NCBI RefSeq assembly: GCF_000523275.1
Contig: NZ_ATHQ01000001.1
Location: forward strand, 769,080 to 833,079
Length of the DNA: 64,000 nucleotides
Source of the DNA: Lebetimonas sp. JH292
GTDB lineage: Bacteria > Campylobacterota > Campylobacteria > Campylobacterales > Nautiliaceae
Direction of reading: 5' to 3'
Under the pieces are notes generated by a model. That model searched no databases. It had not been told where the DNA came from and worked only from the letters and a program-made list of their open reading frames with translations. The stretch's first letter is position 1. Each line of letters begins with the position of its first letter. A program made the position numbers and the translations under genes. Shown here in pieces: positions 7,640-45,322 of this stretch.

Positions 7640-7716
7640 AGTTAAAAATGAAAAATGTAAAGTGAAAAAGGAAGAATAAATATAAATAATAAATAAGTGA
7701 AAAAGGAAGAATATGA
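7640..7716 (+). repeat. Heptad array 2, supplying an SD site and start codon
   Basis: Eleven contiguous 7-bp units in one register: AGTTAAA, AATGAAA, AATGTAA, AGTGAAA, AAGGAAG, AATAAAT, ATAAATA, ATAAATA, AGTGAAA, AAGGAAG, AATATGA. The 18-bp stretch AGTGAAAAAGGAAGAATA occurs twice exactly 35 bp apart (5 x 7). The second AAGGAAG is the Shine-Dalgarno sequence and the last unit contains the ATG of the epimerase. Confidence 0.95.
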
Positions 7717-8753
7717 AAATATTAGTAACAGGGACAGCAGGATTTATAGGATTTCATTTGGCCAACAGACTTGCCAAAAGAGGAGATGAAGTAGTAGGGC
7801 TTGATTGTATAAATGATTATTATGATGTGAATTTAAAATATGCAAGGTTAAATGAGGCTGGAATTGACAAGGAAAAAATAGAATATAACGAAATTGTAGA
7901 ATCTAATAAATATCCTAATTACAGGTTTATAAAACTAAACCTTGAAGATAAATTTAATCTTTTTAAGCTTTTTGAAAAAGAAAAATTCGATAAAGTATGC
8001 CACCTTGCGGCACAGGCAGGGGTTAGATATTCACTTAAAAATCCGGATGCTTATATCAGTTCAAATATTGTAGGGCATATGAACATACTTGAGGCCATAA
8101 GACACAATGGAGTAAAAGCTCTTTCGTATGCAAGCAGCTCGAGCGTATACGGGCTAAATAAAAAACAGCCTTTTTCAACAGATGATAATGTAGACCATCC
8201 TGTCAGTCTGTATGCCGCTACAAAAAAAGCAGATGAGCTTATGAGTCATACATATTCATATCTTTACAATATTCCTACAACAGGGCTGAGGTTTTTTACC
8301 GTTTACGGGCCTTGGGGAAGACCTGATATGGCACTTTTTAAATTTGTAAAAAATATACTCTTAGATAAACCGATAGATGTATATAACTATGGCGATATGC
8401 AAAGGGATTTTACATATATAGACGATATTGTCGAAGGGGTGATAAGGGTAATTGACAATCCCCCAAAACCAAATCCTCAGTGGAACGGAAGGACGAGCGA
8501 GAGTGTGGCTCCGTATAAAGTTTACAATATAGGAAACGGCGCTCCGGTTAGACTTATGGATTTTATAGAGGCAATTGAAGAAGTACTTGGTAAAAAAGCT
8601 AAAAAAAACCTGCTTCCAATGCAGCCCGGGGATGTTGCAAGCACATGGGCCGATACGACTGATTTGCAAAAAGATTTAGGATATAAGCCTTATACAGATG
8701 TAAGAGAGGGAATTAAAAAGTTTGTGGAATGGTATAGATGGTTTTATAAATGA
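7713..8753 (+). CDS. UDP-glucuronate 4-epimerase (SDR epimerase)
   Basis: An extended short-chain dehydrogenase/reductase of 346 residues. The NAD-binding motif TGTAGFIGFHLA is at residues 6-17, a serine-rich active-site stretch ASSSSVYG follows, and the YxxxK motif is YAATKK. The insert DCINDYYDVNLKYARL is typical of UDP-glucuronate 4-epimerases, giving UDP-galacturonate. The preceding ugd gene makes the substrate. Its SD and start lie in a heptad array and its stop codon lies in the next array, so both ends are embedded in repeats. Confidence 0.88.
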   Translation: MKILVTGTAGFIGFHLANRLAKRGDEVVGLDCINDYYDVNLKYARLNEAGIDKEKIEYNEIVESNKYPNYRFIKLNLEDKFNLFKLFEKEKFDKVCHLAAQAGVRYSLKNPDAYISSNIVGHMNILEAIRHNGVKALSYASSSSVYGLNKKQPFSTDDNVDHPVSLYAATKKADELMSHTYSYLYNIPTTGLRFFTVYGPWGRPDMALFKFVKNILLDKPIDVYNYGDMQRDFTYIDDIVEGVIRVIDNPPKPNPQWNGRTSESVAPYKVYNIGNGAPVRLMDFIEAIEEVLGKKAKKNLLPMQPGDVASTWADTTDLQKDLGYKPYTDVREGIKKFVEWYRWFYK

Positions 8754-8820
8754 TGAATGATGAATGATATAATGTTAAATGATGAATGAGAAATTTTGGA
8801 TGTTAAATTATGAATAAGAA
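8751..8820 (+). repeat. Heptad array 3
   Basis: Ten contiguous heptads: TGATGAA, TGATGAA, TGATATA, ATGTTAA, ATGATGA, ATGAGAA, ATTTTGG, ATGTTAA, ATTATGA, ATAAGAA. The first unit contains the TGA stop codon of the UDP-glucuronate epimerase. Confidence 0.92.
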
Positions 8821-8853
8821 AGGAAAAATTAAAGAAAATAATATATAATTGAA

Positions 8854-9127
8854 GTGAAAAAAGAATATATAATGTCAAAACAATTATTAAGATGTGGAAC
8901 TTCAATTGGCAAATATAAAGGAAGCTCAAGCTGGTATAACTAAAAAAGATTTTGTTTCAAAAATGAGTATAGTGAATAAAGAAGCAAGAGAAACAAAATA
9001 TTGGCTAAGATTATTAAATGATAGTGGTTATTTTGAAGAAAATAAAAAATTGTTAAAAGAAATTGATTCAATAATCAATATTTTGACTAAAAATATTAAA
9101 GCATTACAAAAAATCAAAAAGGGCTAA
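8854..9127 (+). pseudogene. S23-type four-helix-bundle protein, truncated and frameshifted
   Basis: The segment EYIMSKQLLRCGTSIG, then in another frame KEAQAGITKKDFVSKMS and KEARETKYWLRLL, matches the four-helix-bundle (23S rRNA intervening-sequence, S23) family. About two bases appear lost between GTSIG and the expected ANIKEAQAG. The N-terminal helix is missing and replaced by the upstream heptad array. The family's function is poorly known. Two more remnants lie at 14186 and 18400. A 77-residue product starting at 8894 could still be made. Confidence 0.8.
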
Positions 9128-9128
9128 A

Positions 9129-10196
9129 ATGAAAACAAATTCAACATTTAACATTAAACATCTAACATCTATCTTAGTTACCGGCGGGGCCGGATATATA
9201 GGAAGTCATGTTGTAAAGCTGCTTTTAGAAAACAGTGATTATAATGTGACTGTTATTGACAGTTTAGTTACAGGATTTAAAGATACAATTGATACATTAA
9301 AAACTATAAGGAATTTTGATTTTATTCAAGCGGATTTGAGTAATTGGAAAGAAATTAAAGGTATTTTTAAAACAAAAAAATTTGATGTTATTATTCATTT
9401 TGCTGCAAGCCTGATTGTGCCTGAGAGTGTAGAAAAGCCTTTAAAATATTATTTAAACAATACAGCAAATACTGCAAATTTAGTAAAACTTGCCAATGAA
9501 TATAGTACTAAAAAATTTATATTTTCTTCGACTGCGGCGGTATACGGCGAACCGGATATGAAAGTGAAAAGTGAAAAGTTAAAAGTAAAAAATGTCGGTA
9601 TTAGTGAAGATTTTCCTACAAATCCGATAAATCCGTACGGACAGAGTAAACTGTTCAGCGAAAAAATAATTCAAGATGCAGCAAAAGCAAATCCTGAATT
9701 TAAATATGTTATTTTTAGATATTTTAATGTGGCGGGGGCGAGCCCCGATTTGATGATAGGGCAGAAAACAAAAGATGCAACCCATTTAATAAAAGTGGCA
9801 AGCGAATGTGCTGTGGGGAAAAGAGATAAAATATATATTTTTGGGGATGATTATCCAACACCTGATGGAACCTGCATAAGGGATTATATTCATGTAGTAG
9901 ATTTAGCGGATGCTCATATTAAAGCAATTGATTATTTAGATAATGAAAAAAGTGATATTTTTAACGTAGGATACGGCAGGGGCGCTAGTGTAAAAGAGGT
10001 AATTGATACAATGAAAAAGGTAAGCGGGGTTGATTTTAAAGTAGAAAATGCTAAGAGAAGGGCGGGAGATCCAGCAATGCTGATTTCAGACAATACAAAA
10101 ATAAAAGAAAAAATGAAATGGCAGCCAAAATATGATAATTTGGAATTTATCTGTAAAACAGCGTATGAGTGGGAAAAAAAGCTAAATAAATTATGA
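9129..10196 (+). CDS. galE: UDP-glucose 4-epimerase with two heptad insertions
   Basis: Interconverts UDP-glucose and UDP-galactose. The protein has 355 residues; the family norm is about 330-340. The Rossmann motif TGGAGYIG is at residues 18-25 and the catalytic motif is NPYGQSK. The first 14 residues are encoded largely by heptads (9140-9174). A second array (9563-9597) inserts about 12 residues (near 145-157) after VYGEPD, close to the active-site region. The frame is kept in both cases. Otherwise intact. Confidence 0.9.
   Translation: MKTNSTFNIKHLTSILVTGGAGYIGSHVVKLLLENSDYNVTVIDSLVTGFKDTIDTLKTIRNFDFIQADLSNWKEIKGIFKTKKFDVIIHFAASLIVPESVEKPLKYYLNNTANTANLVKLANEYSTKKFIFSSTAAVYGEPDMKVKSEKLKVKNVGISEDFPTNPINPYGQSKLFSEKIIQDAAKANPEFKYVIFRYFNVAGASPDLMIGQKTKDATHLIKVASECAVGKRDKIYIFGDDYPTPDGTCIRDYIHVVDLADAHIKAIDYLDNEKSDIFNVGYGRGASVKEVIDTMKKVSGVDFKVENAKRRAGDPAMLISDNTKIKEKMKWQPKYDNLEFICKTAYEWEKKLNKL
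9140..9174 (+). repeat. Heptad array at galE start
   Basis: Five contiguous units, TTCAACA, TTTAACA, TTAAACA, TCTAACA, TCTATCT, are translated as the extra N-terminus of GalE just before the first beta strand. Confidence 0.9.
9563..9597 (+). repeat. Heptad array inside galE
   Basis: Five contiguous units, AGTGAAA, AGTGAAA, AGTTAAA, AGTAAAA, AATGTCG. The 35 bases are translated as a Lys-rich insertion that ordinary GalE proteins lack. Confidence 0.92.
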
Positions 10197-11365: not shown

Positions 11366-13083
11366 ATGTGTGGAATAGTAGGGGTTAAAGGAATAAAAAA
11401 CCCACAGGAGTTTTTAATAGAAGGGCTTAAAGAACTTGAATACAGAGGATATGACAGTGCCGGAATCGCTGTTATGGACGAAGGGGAACTTAAAGTAATA
11501 AAAACTGTCGGAAGACTGAAAAACCTGGAAGTTAAGTTAAAAAATATAAAATTTATTAATCCGAAACTTGGAATAGGTCATACCAGATGGGCAACTCACG
11601 GAAAACCTACTGAACTTAATGCTCACCCCCATATAGGAGAATTTAGTGCGGTTGTTCACAATGGAATTATTGAAAATTATCAAGAAATTAAAAAAGAGCT
11701 TGAAAAAGAGAATATTTCATTTATATCACAAACTGATACAGAAGTAATTGTTAAACTTTTTGAGCATTTTTACAGTGGCAATGCATTTGAAGCGTTCAAA
11801 AAAACACTTGAAAAGCTAAAAGAAAGAGCCTCAAAAGATATTTTTTGCTAAAAAAGGAAGTCCTTTAATTGTAGCAAAAAACGAAGACAAATTTTTCTTT
11901 GCTTCATCCGACGCGCCTCTTGTGGGATATGCAAACAGCGCACATTATCTGGAAGACGGTGAATACGGATATGTTGACAGTGAAATTCAGTTTTAAACCT
12001 CTTCCTACAAATAGAGAATCAGCCAAAAAAGGTGGATTTAGATTTTACATGGAAAAAGAGATTTATGAACAATATGATGTTTTAAAAGAAAATACACTAG
12101 GACGTAATACAAAAGATGGTATTATATTTGATGAGCTTGACAAAAGCTTTTTTGAAGGGATTAATAATATAATTATTTCAGCATGCGGGACTAGCTATCA
12201 TGCAGGATTAGTTGGGAAATATTTAATTGAAAGAGATGCAAAAATAAGAGTAGATGTAGAGGTTGCAAGCGAGCTTAGATATAGAGAGCCGCTTCTTAGT
12301 AAAGATACTCTTTTTATAGTAATTTCTCAAAGCGGAGAGACAGCCGATACCCTTGAAACTCTTAAAATGGCAAAAAAAGCAGGGCTTAAAACACTTGCTT
12401 TATGTAATGTGGATAATTCTTCAATTGTTAGAGTTGCAGATAGGACAATATTGCTTAGGGCTGGAATTGAAAAAGGAGTAGCTTCTACAAAAGCATTTGC
12501 TACACAAGTTATGACCTTATGGATGCTAAGCAATTATTTAGCAAATAAAAACGAATATGAAATTATAAATCAAGCAATTGAATCCACAAAAGTAAATCCA
12601 AAACTACACGAAAAAATTAAAAGGCTTTCAAAAAGATATCTTCACGGACACGGATTTTTCTTTATAGGAAGAGATATTTTTTATCCTCTTGCACTTGAGG
12701 GAGCACTGAAACTAAAAGAAATAAGCTATATTCACGCAGAAGGCTACCCGGCAGGCGAGATGAAACACGGCCCTATTGCATTAGCTGACCCTGAGCTTTT
12801 TGTAGTAGCGCTTCTTAGTAAAAATATACTTTTTGAAAAAACAAAATCAAATATTGAAGAACTAGTCGCAAGAGATGCTACTGTTTTAACAATTTCAAGC
12901 GAAGAGATTGAATTAACTGATGATTATGTTAAAATTTCATTAGCAAATCATCCAATGGTAGAATTTTTTGAAATGATGGTAATCACTCAACTTTTAGCAC
13001 TAGAAGTTGCTGTTAGACTTGGAAATGATGTAGATATGCCAAGAAACTTGGCAAAATCTGTAACGGTTTTGTTAAAATTATAA
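11366..13083 (+). pseudogene. glmS: Glucosamine-6-phosphate synthase, broken by at least two lesions
   Basis: Glutamine:fructose-6-phosphate amidotransferase makes glucosamine-6-phosphate for peptidoglycan and LPS. The first part starts MCGIVGVKG with the catalytic Cys and has GHTRWATHGKP, then breaks near 11830. A second frame ([17 protein letters not shown] to DSEIQF) ends near 11995. A third carries the two SIS domains with [20 protein letters not shown] and the ending [10 protein letters not shown]. About 20-30 codons are missing near 11830 and a few near 11995. glmS is normally essential, so a sequence error or a second copy is likely. Confidence 0.88.
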
Positions 13084-13103: not shown

Positions 13104-14168
13104 TTGAAAAATATAATTCTTTGCGGGGGGAGTGGAACAAGGCTATGGCCGTTAAGCAGAAAACTAATGCCAAAGCAGTTTATAAAACTTTTTGATAATA
13201 AATCACTTTTTCAGCTTACAGCAAAGAGAACATTAGATCAATTAGAAGAGATAAATAAATTAGCCCTCGCAGCGTTTCAAAGCAATGAAGATGAAATACT
13301 TTTTATAACTCCAAGCGATCATTTAAAAAAAAATGAAAAAAAAATATGAAGAAGCGATAACAAAAGCAAAAGAATTAGCCCAACAGAGGATATATAGTAA
13401 CATTTGGAATAAAACCAAGTGAAGCTCATACAGGATACGGATGGAATAGCGGAATGTTTATGTTTAAAGCGGGAGTGTTTTTAGAAGAACTTAAAAAATA
13501 TGCTCCTGAAATTTATGAAAAAAGTTTAGAAGCTTATAAAAATGCAAAAAAAGATAAAAATATTTTAAGAATAAGATTAGATGATATGTCAAAAATTCCT
13601 GAAAAAAGCATAGATTATGCAGTTATGGAACATAGTGATAAAATAAAAGTAATTAAATCAGATTTTAAATGGAAAGATTTAGGTGATTTTGACAGGACTT
13701 GAAGATTTTATTGTAATAGATACCAATGATGCTTTACTCATAACAAAAAAAGGCAAAACACAAAAAGTAAAAGATGTGGTAAAAAGGTTAAAAAAAGAAA
13801 ATAAAGACTTAACAGAATTTCATACCACAGTACATAGACCGTGGGGAATATTTGAGAATTTAATTGATGAAAACGGATATAAAATAAAAAGAATAATAGT
13901 AAAACCGGGAAAAAGACTTTCCCTTCAAAAACATTTTCACAGAAGCGAACATTGGGTAGTAGTAAGCGGGACAGCAGAAGTTCAAGTGGGAGATAAAAAA
14001 TATTTAGTAAGACCAAATGAATCAACATACATAAAAATGGGAGAGATTCACAGATTGTCAAATCCAGGTAAAATACCTGTGGTATTAATTGAAGCACAGG
14101 TTGGCGAATATTTAGGTGAGGATGATATTGTAAGATTTGAAGATGATTTTAATAGAAGTATGTGCTAA
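13104..14168 (+). pseudogene. manC: Mannose-1-phosphate guanylyltransferase/mannose-6-phosphate isomerase, several deletions
   Basis: A bifunctional ManC/AlgA-type enzyme giving GDP-mannose. The N-terminal nucleotidyltransferase start (ILCGGSGTRLWPLSRK) is intact, as is FITPSDHL. Segments are then missing between LDQL and AALA-type sequence, between HTGYG and WNSGMFMFKAG, and between DLGDFD and GLEDFIVIDTND. The C-terminal cupin isomerase domain (HRPWGIFENL, QKHFHRSEHWVVVSG) is complete. The family length is about 450-470 residues; only about 350 codons remain, in several frames. The first of the GDP-fucose genes. Confidence 0.88.
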
Positions 14169-14185
14169 GTGATAGGTGCTAAGAT

Positions 14186-14398
14186 ATGAAATGTGAAAAG
14201 TTAGATTTTTGGAAAAAATCTTCAAGAATGTGTGCTAATGTATATAAAGAATTAAAAGAGTTAAAAGATTTTGGTTTTAAAGATCAAATAATTAGAAGTG
14301 CATTATCTATAGCAAGTAATATTGCAGAAGGACTGGAAAAAGAATCTCTAAAAGAACAGATTAGATTTTTCTAAAATGCTAACAGGATTATCAAAATA
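14186..14398 (+). pseudogene. S23-type four-helix-bundle protein, internally deleted
   Basis: The first 62 residues contain DFWKKSSRMCANVYKEL and IIRSALSIASNIAEGLEKES, the signature of the four-helix-bundle S23 family. The frame stops after RFF, and a second frame resumes at [12 protein letters not shown], the expected C-terminal end. The third helix (about 25 residues) is deleted. It lies between manC and gmd. Confidence 0.82.
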
Positions 14399-14415
14399 TC
14401 ATAAAAAGGAAAAGT

Positions 14416-15256
14416 ATGAAAAAAAATAATCTTAAATTTCAAAACTCAAATCTAAAACCTAAAAAAGGTCAAGATGGGAGTTATTTAGCAGAATTTTTAC
14501 TTGAAAAAGGTTATGAAGTTCATGGTATAAAAAGAAGAACAAGCCTTTTTAATACGAAAAGAATAGACCATTTATATAAAGACCCGCATGAAGAAAATGT
14601 AAATTTCTTTTTACATTACGGAGATATGACAGACAGTATGAATATAAATATACAACCTTGCAGCACAATCACATGTAGCAGTTAGTTTTGAAGAACCGGA
14701 ATATATCTGATATGGATTAGTTCAGGAAGTACCGCAAAGTGAAAAAACACCATTTTATCCAAGAAGTCCTTATGCAGTAGCTAAACTCTATGCGTATTGG
14801 ATTACGGTAAATTATAGAGAAGCGTATAATATGTTTGCTTGCAATGGAATACTTTTTAATCACGAAAGTCCAAGACGTGGAGAAACATTTGTAACAAGAA
14901 AAATAACAAGAGGAATGGCAAGAATCCTTTTAGGACTTGATAAAAAACTTTATTTAGGGAATCTAAGTGCAAAAAGAGATTGGGTAATAGCGACAGGTAG
15001 AACCACAGAAATTAGAGAATTTGTAAGACTTACAGGAAAATATCTTGGGTTAGAAATTTCATTTGAAGGTAAAGGAAATACTTCAAAACCTTTTAACAAC
15101 ATCCACAATATATTATCGATCATGTAAAAAATTTGATAGGAAAAGATATTGTAAATGTAGACCCTAAATATTTTAGACCGACAGAAGTTGATTTACTTTT
15201 AGGAAAAAACTTGGATGGGAGTCAAAAATAACTCTTGAAGAGAGATGGTAGAGAGT
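14416..15256 (+). pseudogene. gmd: GDP-mannose 4,6-dehydratase, several deletions
   Basis: First step from GDP-mannose to GDP-fucose. Recognisable blocks in order are [20 protein letters not shown] with the [10 protein letters not shown] and LHYGDMTDS segments, [17 protein letters not shown] in a second frame, [17 protein letters not shown] with the catalytic Tyr/Lys, [17 protein letters not shown], and DPKYFRPTEVDLLLG near the end. Deleted stretches fall after DMTDS, after EEPEY, after SAKRDW and after FEGKG. The last contains repeat-like sequence. Confidence 0.88.
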
Positions 15257-42714: not shown

Positions 42715-43836
42715 ATGAAAAAAAGAATAGCTTTAATTGTTTTTGGAATACTATTGGCAGTTTCAGTTTTTTTACTGATTAAATATATTATATTTTCACA
42801 TAATTATGCCACTTCAAATGCCGTGTTTGTAAAAACCGATTCTCTTACAAATCTTTCTTTTAAAATTCCCGGGAAAATAGAAAATATTTATGTAAAAGAG
42901 GGTGATAGTGTAAAAAAAGGGAAATTGCTGGCGAAACTTGATACAAAAGATTTGGAAATTCAAAAAAACGGGCTTATTAATCAGATAAACGCTTTAAAGC
43001 AAAAAATTCAGGCAAGTATTATCCAAAAAGATAAATTAAGTAAAGATATAGATGAAAATATAAATTTAATAAATACTCAGATTAAGAAGCTTGATAAACT
43101 GATTGAAGCAAAAAAGTATGAAATTAAGGCAAAAGAAAGCAAACTTCAAAAACTTGCAAATGATTATAAAAGATTTAGCAGACTATATAAAAACAGAAAA
43201 ATTTCATATGAAAAATATGAAAATGTAAAAACAGCTTTTTTTGCTTTGCAAAATGAAATAAATGCGGATAAAAAAATTTTGGAAAGTATGAATGAAGATA
43301 AAAATGCATTGTTTATAAAATTAAATATTGCAGAGAATAACAAAAAAGAAGTAATTAGATTAGCTAAGTTAACTGATTCAATGAAATCTCAGTTAAGAGC
43401 TTTGAATGATAAACTCTCTTTTGTAAACCAGCATATAAAAGAGAGTTTTATATATGCTCCTTTTAACGGGGAAATAGCCAAAAAATTTGAAAACCCCGAT
43501 GAAGTTGTAAATTCCGGAAGTAAGATTTTAAGTATTGTAAATCCAGAGGATTTGTATGTATTGGTTTTGCTTGAAGAGACTAAATTAAAAGGTATAAAAA
43601 AAGGAAACTATGCAAAAATCCATATAGATGCAACGGGCAAGGATTATAACGGATATGTAAATAAAATTTTGCCGGCAAGTGCTGCTACATTTGCGCTCGT
43701 CCCAAGAGACATAAGCAGCGGAGAGTTTACAAAATTAGCCCAGAGGTTTTATGTAAGGATTAAATTTAAAAAAATTCCAGATGATGTGCTTGTTGGGATG
43801 AGCGGGGAAGTTGAAATAGCAACTTTTCACTTTTAA
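42715..43836 (+). CDS. HlyD/EmrA-type membrane fusion protein
   Basis: A periplasmic adaptor of 373 residues linking an inner-membrane exporter to TolC. It has an N-terminal membrane anchor (LIVFGILLAVSVFLLIKYII), a lipoyl half-motif IENIYVKEGDSVKKGKLLAK, a long coiled coil (about 85-235), and the return lipoyl/barrel part beginning SFIYAPFNGEIAKKF. The MFS gene that follows makes EmrA the best match. Its last residues (TFHF) and stop are encoded by heptads. Confidence 0.88.
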   Translation: MKKRIALIVFGILLAVSVFLLIKYIIFSHNYATSNAVFVKTDSLTNLSFKIPGKIENIYVKEGDSVKKGKLLAKLDTKDLEIQKNGLINQINALKQKIQASIIQKDKLSKDIDENINLINTQIKKLDKLIEAKKYEIKAKESKLQKLANDYKRFSRLYKNRKISYEKYENVKTAFFALQNEINADKKILESMNEDKNALFIKLNIAENNKKEVIRLAKLTDSMKSQLRALNDKLSFVNQHIKESFIYAPFNGEIAKKFENPDEVVNSGSKILSIVNPEDLYVLVLLEETKLKGIKKGNYAKIHIDATGKDYNGYVNKILPASAATFALVPRDISSGEFTKLAQRFYVRIKFKKIPDDVLVGMSGEVEIATFHF

Positions 43837-43858
43837 CTTTACACTTTACATTTTAATC
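43824..43858 (+). repeat. Heptad array 9
   Basis: Five contiguous units TTTTCAC, TTTTAAC, TTTACAC, TTTACAT, TTTAATC. It covers the 3' end of the emrA-like gene and the 5' end of the MFS gene. It is the reverse-complement orientation of AGTGAAA-type arrays. Confidence 0.93.
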
Positions 43859-43873
43859 ATTACCGGTGCTTTT

Positions 43874-45322
43874 ATGGCTGTTTTGGATACCACGATAGTG
43901 GATATTGTGGTGCCTCGCTTAAAAGGACCGCTATCAACCGATATGTACGGGGTTCAATGGGTGATTACGGCATATATGACGGCTGCTGCGGCCGGACTTT
44001 TGGTGGTAGAGTGGCTTATTAAAAGATACGGGAACAAATGGGTTTATATAGTAGGGGTTGGACTTTTTAGTCTGGCTTCTTTTCTTTGCGGAATTTCAAA
44101 TTCACTCGGGTTTATTATAAGTGCAAGGGTAGTTCAGGGATTTGCAGAGGCTCTTATTATGGTTACAAGCCATATGATGATTTTTTCTCTTTTTCCTGCT
44201 GATAAAAAAGGTGTGGCAATGGGTATTTTTGCTTTAGGCGTGGCTTTTGCCCCGGCAGTTGGTCCGACGCTCGGCGGGTATCTGACCGAATGGTTTAGCT
44301 GGAGGGCCGTATTTTTTGTAAATGTGCCTATAGGTATAGTTTTGGTTATTTTCGGCAGTCTGCTTTTACCGGATATTGGGGAAAAAGAAAATTATCCGCT
44401 AAATATAATCTCTTTTGCTTTTCTTTCAATTTCTACCGTGGCTCTTTTGATAATGCTTAGTAAAGGCCAGCAGTATGGATGGTTTAATTCTTCTTTTATA
44501 GTTTATTTGGCATTTGCTTCCTGGATGGCTTTTTTATTTTTTTTAATCAGCGAATATTTTTCAAAAAATAAACTGTTTGATTATTCGTTATTTAAAAACC
44601 CCTTTTATACACTGGGAATTTTAATCTATTTTGTTTTACTCGGTTTTTCGATGTATCAGTATTTTTATATGATACCTGTATTTTACGAGCATATAAAAGG
44701 GCTTAGTTCCATTCAGGCAGGGCTAGGGGTTTTGGGATTTGGAATATGGATAGGGATTGTGAGTATAATTGCGGGGAATGTAAGCGACAAAACCGGTCCC
44801 ATTCCTGTGCTTACGGTTGCGGTTATAATTTATCTGATAACATCTTTTTATCTTTTTCCGCCGATTAATTACTATATGAGTTTTAGCGAAGCGGTTTTAA
44901 GGACAATGCCTTTTGGAATATCTATGGGAATGTTTTTTGCGCCTGTCACGGTGCTTATTATGAATGCCGCTAAAAACAAAGGTGAACAGGCAATTGTGGT
45001 TATGGATTATGTGAGGTTTGTGGGAGGGAGTTTCGGTACCGCAATTGCTACAAATTCTATGTTTTATTACCAGGCAAAAGAGTACGAGGGATAGTAACCC
45101 TGCAAAATTATGACCATGGTCAGTGATATTTTTGAAAAAATGAAATATGTTTTCGGTGAAACAGGTGAAGTTATTTTAAGAAACCTACAGGAGTTTATGG
45201 CTATGAATTACGGGTTTAAGTATGTCTGGCTAAATGCCGCTTTCTGGGGACTGTTAGGTAGTGTATTTGTGTTTTTGCTGCCTGACAGCATCAATATTTC
45301 TCTGATAAAATATTTCAAATAA
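43874..45322 (+). pseudogene. EmrB/QacA-type MFS drug exporter (DHA2), two in-frame stops
   Basis: A 14-helix drug:H+ antiporter. MAVLDTTIVDIVVPRLKG is the usual first-helix motif, and GWRAVFFVNVP-like SWRAVFFVNVPIGI and other DHA2 blocks follow. The frame runs to KEYEG, then TAG TAA, and resumes in the same frame at VSDIFEKMKY. The expected IVTLQNYD can be read in another frame between, so two compensating indels near 45092 and 45118 are likely. The first ATG is late: ILIITGAF upstream is in frame with no start, and the N-terminus is replaced by heptads. Confidence 0.85.

Follow-up and report, generated by a model that had tools for sequence, protein, structure and literature searches.

We find that galE in a 64,000-nucleotide stretch of the Lebetimonas sp. 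JH292 chromosome (hereafter, the window) carries two in-frame arrays of 7-nt repeats (heptads) that, with high probability, arose in different ways. The array encoding the N-terminus of GalE would be the 3' arm of an element carrying an S23 gene, since decayed, and the internal array would be a separate expansion.

The galE gene (9129..10196, plus strand) encodes a 355-residue protein that contains the Pfam Epimerase domain and has UDP-glucose 4-epimerase 7k3p as its best PDB match (E 7e-126). It has sequence, predicted fold and active-site motifs in common with the solved GalE proteins (7k3p, 2c20), and the GxxGxxG, SST and YxxxK motifs are kept, with G19, G22, G25, S133, S134, Y170 and K174 invariant among 13 sequences; compared with close relatives, the protein is longer by about 12 residues at the N-terminus and by 7 in the loop. 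The first array (9139..9171, plus strand), delineated by TRF, a lag-7 scan and arm matching, encodes approximately residues 4-14 (NSTFNIKHLTS) within the predicted N-terminal stretch MKTNSTFNIKHLT. The second, of the AAAGTGA type (9559..9595, plus strand), encodes approximately residues 144-156, part of the loop that joins the SSTAAVYG strand to the YGQSK helix. TRF identified period-7 repeats at 9139-9168 (4.3 copies) and 9561-9591 (4.4 copies, 91% matches), the lag-7 scan marked 9137-9173 and 9559-9595, and both arrays read in frame within the 355-residue GalE. These analyses bear out the first-pass annotation in that galE contains two in-frame additions derived from heptads; its count of five heptads per array has to be amended to about 4-5 degenerate units each. 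An AlphaFold2 model (13 sequences) has a mean pLDDT of 89 and drops below 50 in just two segments, residues 2-9 and 145-154, both inside heptad-encoded stretches; these two segments are the only parts of the modelled GalE that are predicted to be disordered, and the second is the loop for which modelling had been suggested.

Tandem 7-nt units occur well above chance in the window and across the chromosome. In the window, nine lag-7 regions were detected, compared with a mean of 0.0 in five third-order Markov simulations. The whole chromosome contig (1,456,545 bp) contains 87 regions at lag 7, 34 at lag 14 and 13 at lag 21, the latter two lags being multiples of 7, and 0-5 regions at each of the other lags between 1 and 21. 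The galE arrays are therefore not a chance occurrence, and galE is one of many array sites. Similar arrays are spread across many genes and spacers, and many of those in spacers are close to the end or the start of a gene. Rather than one or a few fixed units genome-wide, the units differ across the window, and arms are specific to their locus within a single genome. The longest arrays in the listed part of the chromosome are two GGATGAA arrays (G000:C1, 390825-390939 and 391596-391679) that share one orientation and are separated by about 650 bp.

The N-terminal array closes a decayed S23 element that spans 8746-9171, between galE and an upstream NAD-dependent epimerase gene from the ORF list (7713..8753, plus strand), the stop codon of which abuts the 5' heptad arm of the element (8746..8815, plus strand; TRF period 7/14). 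Between the arms lies a decayed S23/four-helix-bundle (23S_rRNA_IVP) gene (8854..9127, plus strand) that is missing its N-terminal part and has one frame break near 8910. Broken as it is, the gene matches TIGR02436 at 8909-9106 (56.1 bits; cut-off 24) and PF05635 at 8894-9124 (E 3.6e-12; 46.9, cut-off 33.8). The ends of the element are complementary and able to form a stem, though a short one: the inverted match, which includes TAATGTTAAATGATGAAT at 8770-8787 in the 5' arm, is 18 bp long and scores 31, compared with a median of 17 and a maximum of 28 against the 3' flanks of other loci. The motif AGGG precedes the galE ATG, and the 3' arm follows this ATG and reads in frame into SILVTGG. In the sister genome G001 (L002), the same epimerase gene end is followed by TAA-GGAGAGGG-ATG, so that only an 8-bp spacer separates the two genes and GalE begins with MNILVTGG; the corresponding gap in the window is 375 bp. 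The same layout, with an in-frame 3' arm, precedes galE homologues at two further loci (L098 and L099). Taken alone, the window copy is weak evidence because its matched arm segment is just 18 bp long and its S23 gene is broken.

S23 loci elsewhere were collected from Campylobacterota, and 40 with full flanks were tested. In the inverted orientation, the median arm score was 32, compared with 16 for mispaired flanks, and 30 of the 40 loci exceeded the 95th percentile of mispaired scores, against one of 40 for distal controls (p = 9e-24); the remaining 10 loci fell below this threshold. Direct-repeat flanks, found at two of 40 loci only, were rejected as a description of these elements. Seven was the best period for 32 of the 40 5' arms, 32 of the 40 3' arms and 15 of the 80 distal controls. 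The heptad unit differs between loci, even inside one genome, and in the multi-copy genomes G254, G267 and G044 an arm matches the opposite arm of its own element and not those of sister copies, the cognate and mispaired scores within single genomes being 34.5 and 16, 49.5 and 16, and 58.5 and 14, a pattern that calls for explanation. On the coding strand, 5' arms are rich in G (G 295, C 40; 26 of 29). Of the 42 elements whose arms match, 30 have a 3' arm that forms the in-frame N-terminus of the next gene; the start codon of that gene either follows the S23 gene and precedes the arm or overlaps the S23 end. RNA duplex energies of the 150-nt flanks placed 17 of 40 cognate pairs beyond the 5th percentile; being less sharp than sequence matching, probably blurred by base composition, this measure was dropped as the main test.

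Plasmids of Cyanobacteriota and Bacteroidota show the layout as well, around 11 of 12 S23 genes, one of these 11 with an 8-nt period. The sole exception to inverted arms among the 12 plasmid loci is L146, on a Pseudanabaena plasmid, where the S23 gene lies between cas6 and cas4 and is accompanied by long direct-orientation arrays (AAAGCTA, AAAGCCA). Both L145 and L147 are S23 elements within CRISPR-cas operons (cas6/cas4; cas10/cmr3). An S23 copy with heptad arms was also found inside the 23S rRNA gene of G070 (L154). A phage origin was considered and discarded, with no S23 match among 50,697 phage records. Neither target duplication nor movement of an S23 element was seen.

The Lebetimonas genome itself contains only two S23 fragments. 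The second is a decayed element of which only the N-terminal part of the S23 gene is left (14160..14480, plus strand; TIGR02436 match 14207-14383; PF05635 E 2.2e-16), with 7-nt arrays discernible by eye on both sides, and it runs into a GDP-mannose dehydratase-like gene (14420-14900) that has no usual start and looks damaged. Between galE and this relic, glmS (11366-13083) is seemingly split into two ORFs (11366-11851 and 11899-13083), suggestive of a frame break or a sequencing error. A third relic, at an emrA-emrB-like junction, is a lone array of the 3'-arm type (43821..43856, plus strand) with no S23 gene. In five relatives, this junction contains an S23 element with matched arms, and in a sixth, an S23 element without clear arms; both arms are of the GAGAATT/AATTCTC type in L111 and of the AAAATGG or AAAGTGA type in the others. 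In the window, no clear ATG can be assigned to the emrB-like gene upstream of the 3'-arm scar (43821-43880), which leaves its start uncertain, and in G001 the junction contains an unrelated insert of ~1.4 kb with an ATPase-like ORF (G001:C1, about 154894-156305). The L095/L096 site holds a solitary array both in the Lebetimonas genome and in G001, and the L104 site is clean in both. Such relic sites show that an array can occur at a site that lacks an S23 gene. An array-only site could be either a remnant or a landing site, and the 3'-arm type of the array at the emrAB-like junction favours a remnant.

An alternative is that both galE arrays are products of ordinary 7-nt slippage in a heptad-prone genome and that the adjoining S23 remains are coincidental. 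The abundance of arrays speaks for this reading, with 87 of them on the chromosome and only two S23 fragments found in the whole genome, as do heptad-rich genomes, such as that of Xanthomonas (GGGAATC), that have been described without mention of S23 (PMC4692102). Moreover, in a strict scan of 833 kb, none of 54 solitary arrays, the internal galE array included, had an inverted partner, and arrays can thus exist without an element. Slippage does not explain, however, why S23 genes in several phyla are flanked by inverted arms matched to their locus, or why the emrAB-like junction of the same window has a 3' arm without S23, and for the N-terminal array it is refuted by arm matching on the independent set of plasmid S23 genes. 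As an account of both arrays, we consider slippage unlikely.

For the internal array, slippage is the likeliest account. This array has neither an S23 gene nor an inverted partner, and comparison of nine family orthologues, the window galE included, indicates how it might have grown. Four of these (G006, G008, G014 and G009) span 33 residues from FSSTA through NPYG, with a heptad-free loop that is, or closely resembles, GEPDISEIGNGI. The window galE and those of G001, G002, G005 and G011 have 38-40 residues, and the extra stretch consists of heptads that differ from one gene to another: AAAGTGA/AAAGTTA in the window, AAAATGG/AAAATGT in G001, GAATGGA/GAATTGA in G002, GAATTGA-type in G005 and AATGGAC/AATGGAA in G011. 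The heptad origin first proposed for these residues is not refuted by this comparison: the uninserted orthologues lack them and the lengthened ones have heptads of their own. The insert had been put at about 12 residues; the site is indeed a loop where the best solved GalE relatives show an 11-residue gap, but the net gain relative to the uninserted loop GEPDISEIGNGIKEDFP of the reference relatives is 7 residues, that is, 21 nt or three heptads. The frame problem raised by a 35-base insertion disappears because, with uninserted relatives as the reference, the gene has gained 21 nt, array bases having replaced part of the old loop. A tree built with the loop removed, which leaves open the order among the remaining family members, groups long loops with short ones (short G008 with long G005; short G009 with long G002), which implies that heptads were gained several times, or gained and also lost. 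In the uninserted loops, AATGGAAT or a close variant of it provides a plausible seed for heptad growth. The internal array would thus be a separate heptad expansion, independent of any S23 gene, within a loop tolerant of changes in length, probably grown by slippage from a resident AATGGAAT-like seed. Taken alone, the internal insert is ordinary. The interpretation given in the first-pass annotation holds insofar as both additions derive from heptads; it overlooked the decayed S23 element of which the N-terminal array is very probably the 3' arm, and the internal array appears to be a different event.

A further possibility is that galE is a phase-variable contingency locus, in which adding or losing one 7-nt unit would shift the reading frame. 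In its favour, the unit length is not a multiple of three, the start codon precedes the first array, and heptanucleotide repeats are discussed in connection with phase variation of HMW1A in Haemophilus influenzae (PMC8262952). Nevertheless, we consider phase variation highly improbable: the reading frame is kept in all nine family loops, each galE array comprises just 4-5 units or so with interruptions, and many other genes and spacers contain arrays of this sort. Direct reading of the sequence shows that a third perfect AAAGTGA in galE would place TGA in frame; unit 3 of the internal array is AAAGTTA. We give equally little credence to the heptads acting as translational regulatory sites, a role suggested for TAACTGA in Beggiatoaceae (MacGregor 2015; PMC4679880): many arrays do occur in spacers, close to where genes end or begin, but the units differ by locus, so there is no single shared binding site, and one of the galE arrays lies deep within the coding region.

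For the N-terminal array, we favour a decayed S23 element, which in its intact form would consist of a 5' heptad array, G-rich on the coding strand, the S23 gene, a ribosome-binding site with a new ATG and a 3' array, reverse-complementary to the first, that reads in frame into the next gene. The arms may pair in RNA in the cell and enclose the S23 gene, as in intervening sequences (IVSs) of 23S rRNA; that the element moves, and what part S23 plays, are likewise inferred. By supplying the start codon of the downstream gene, the element would become hard to remove cleanly, and the S23 gene could then decay while the arm stays in the host gene. In this way, a small element might render a host gene dependent on it and leave behind new protein ends. 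Candidate sources of arms that are locus-specific yet complementary are copying between the arms through a hairpin and repeated addition of 7-nt units at both ends during insertion. More broadly, and tentatively, since we regard it as somewhat less than an even prospect, S23 genes might mark small elements of one widespread family, which build new inverted heptad arms every time they insert, for instance through repeated 7-nt additions at both target ends or hairpin copying between arms, with many unexplained bacterial heptamer arrays being their remnants. Two long-standing oddities, S23 genes of unknown function and scattered 7-nt arrays, are hereby joined in one testable anatomy.

The four-helix-bundle Avd proteins found in diversity-generating retroelements belong to a fold family related to that of S23. 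Individually, S23 genes, rRNA IVSs and heptamer repeats have been described before; in open-licence papers, we found no report that ties S23 genes to heptad arrays, and one may exist elsewhere. The closest known relatives are rRNA IVSs, such as the 428-nt IVS of Coxiella burnetii, which carries an S23 gene; rRNA IVSs are excised by RNase III (PMC4990558). The galE-type element has in common with them the S23/23S_rRNA_IVP gene, often decaying, the complementary ends and a length of about 420 bp, and L154 combines a true rRNA location with the same kind of heptad arms. Unlike rRNA IVSs, the galE-type element lies between two protein-coding genes, rather than inside 23S or 16S rRNA, and we therefore classify it as an IVS-like S23 element; its arms are 7-nt arrays, and its 3' arm is predicted to be translated, giving a new start codon to the next gene. 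The second point of comparison is the known heptamer repeats, TAACTGA of Beggiatoaceae (PMC4679880), GGGAATC of Xanthomonas (PMC4692102) and the STRR of cyanobacteria, which are likewise short tandem 7-nt arrays, mostly between genes, with some inside ORFs near protein ends. These repeats have been described as one or a few units per genome with no tie to S23, whereas arrays of the galE type have a unit for each locus and form inverted pairs around S23 genes.
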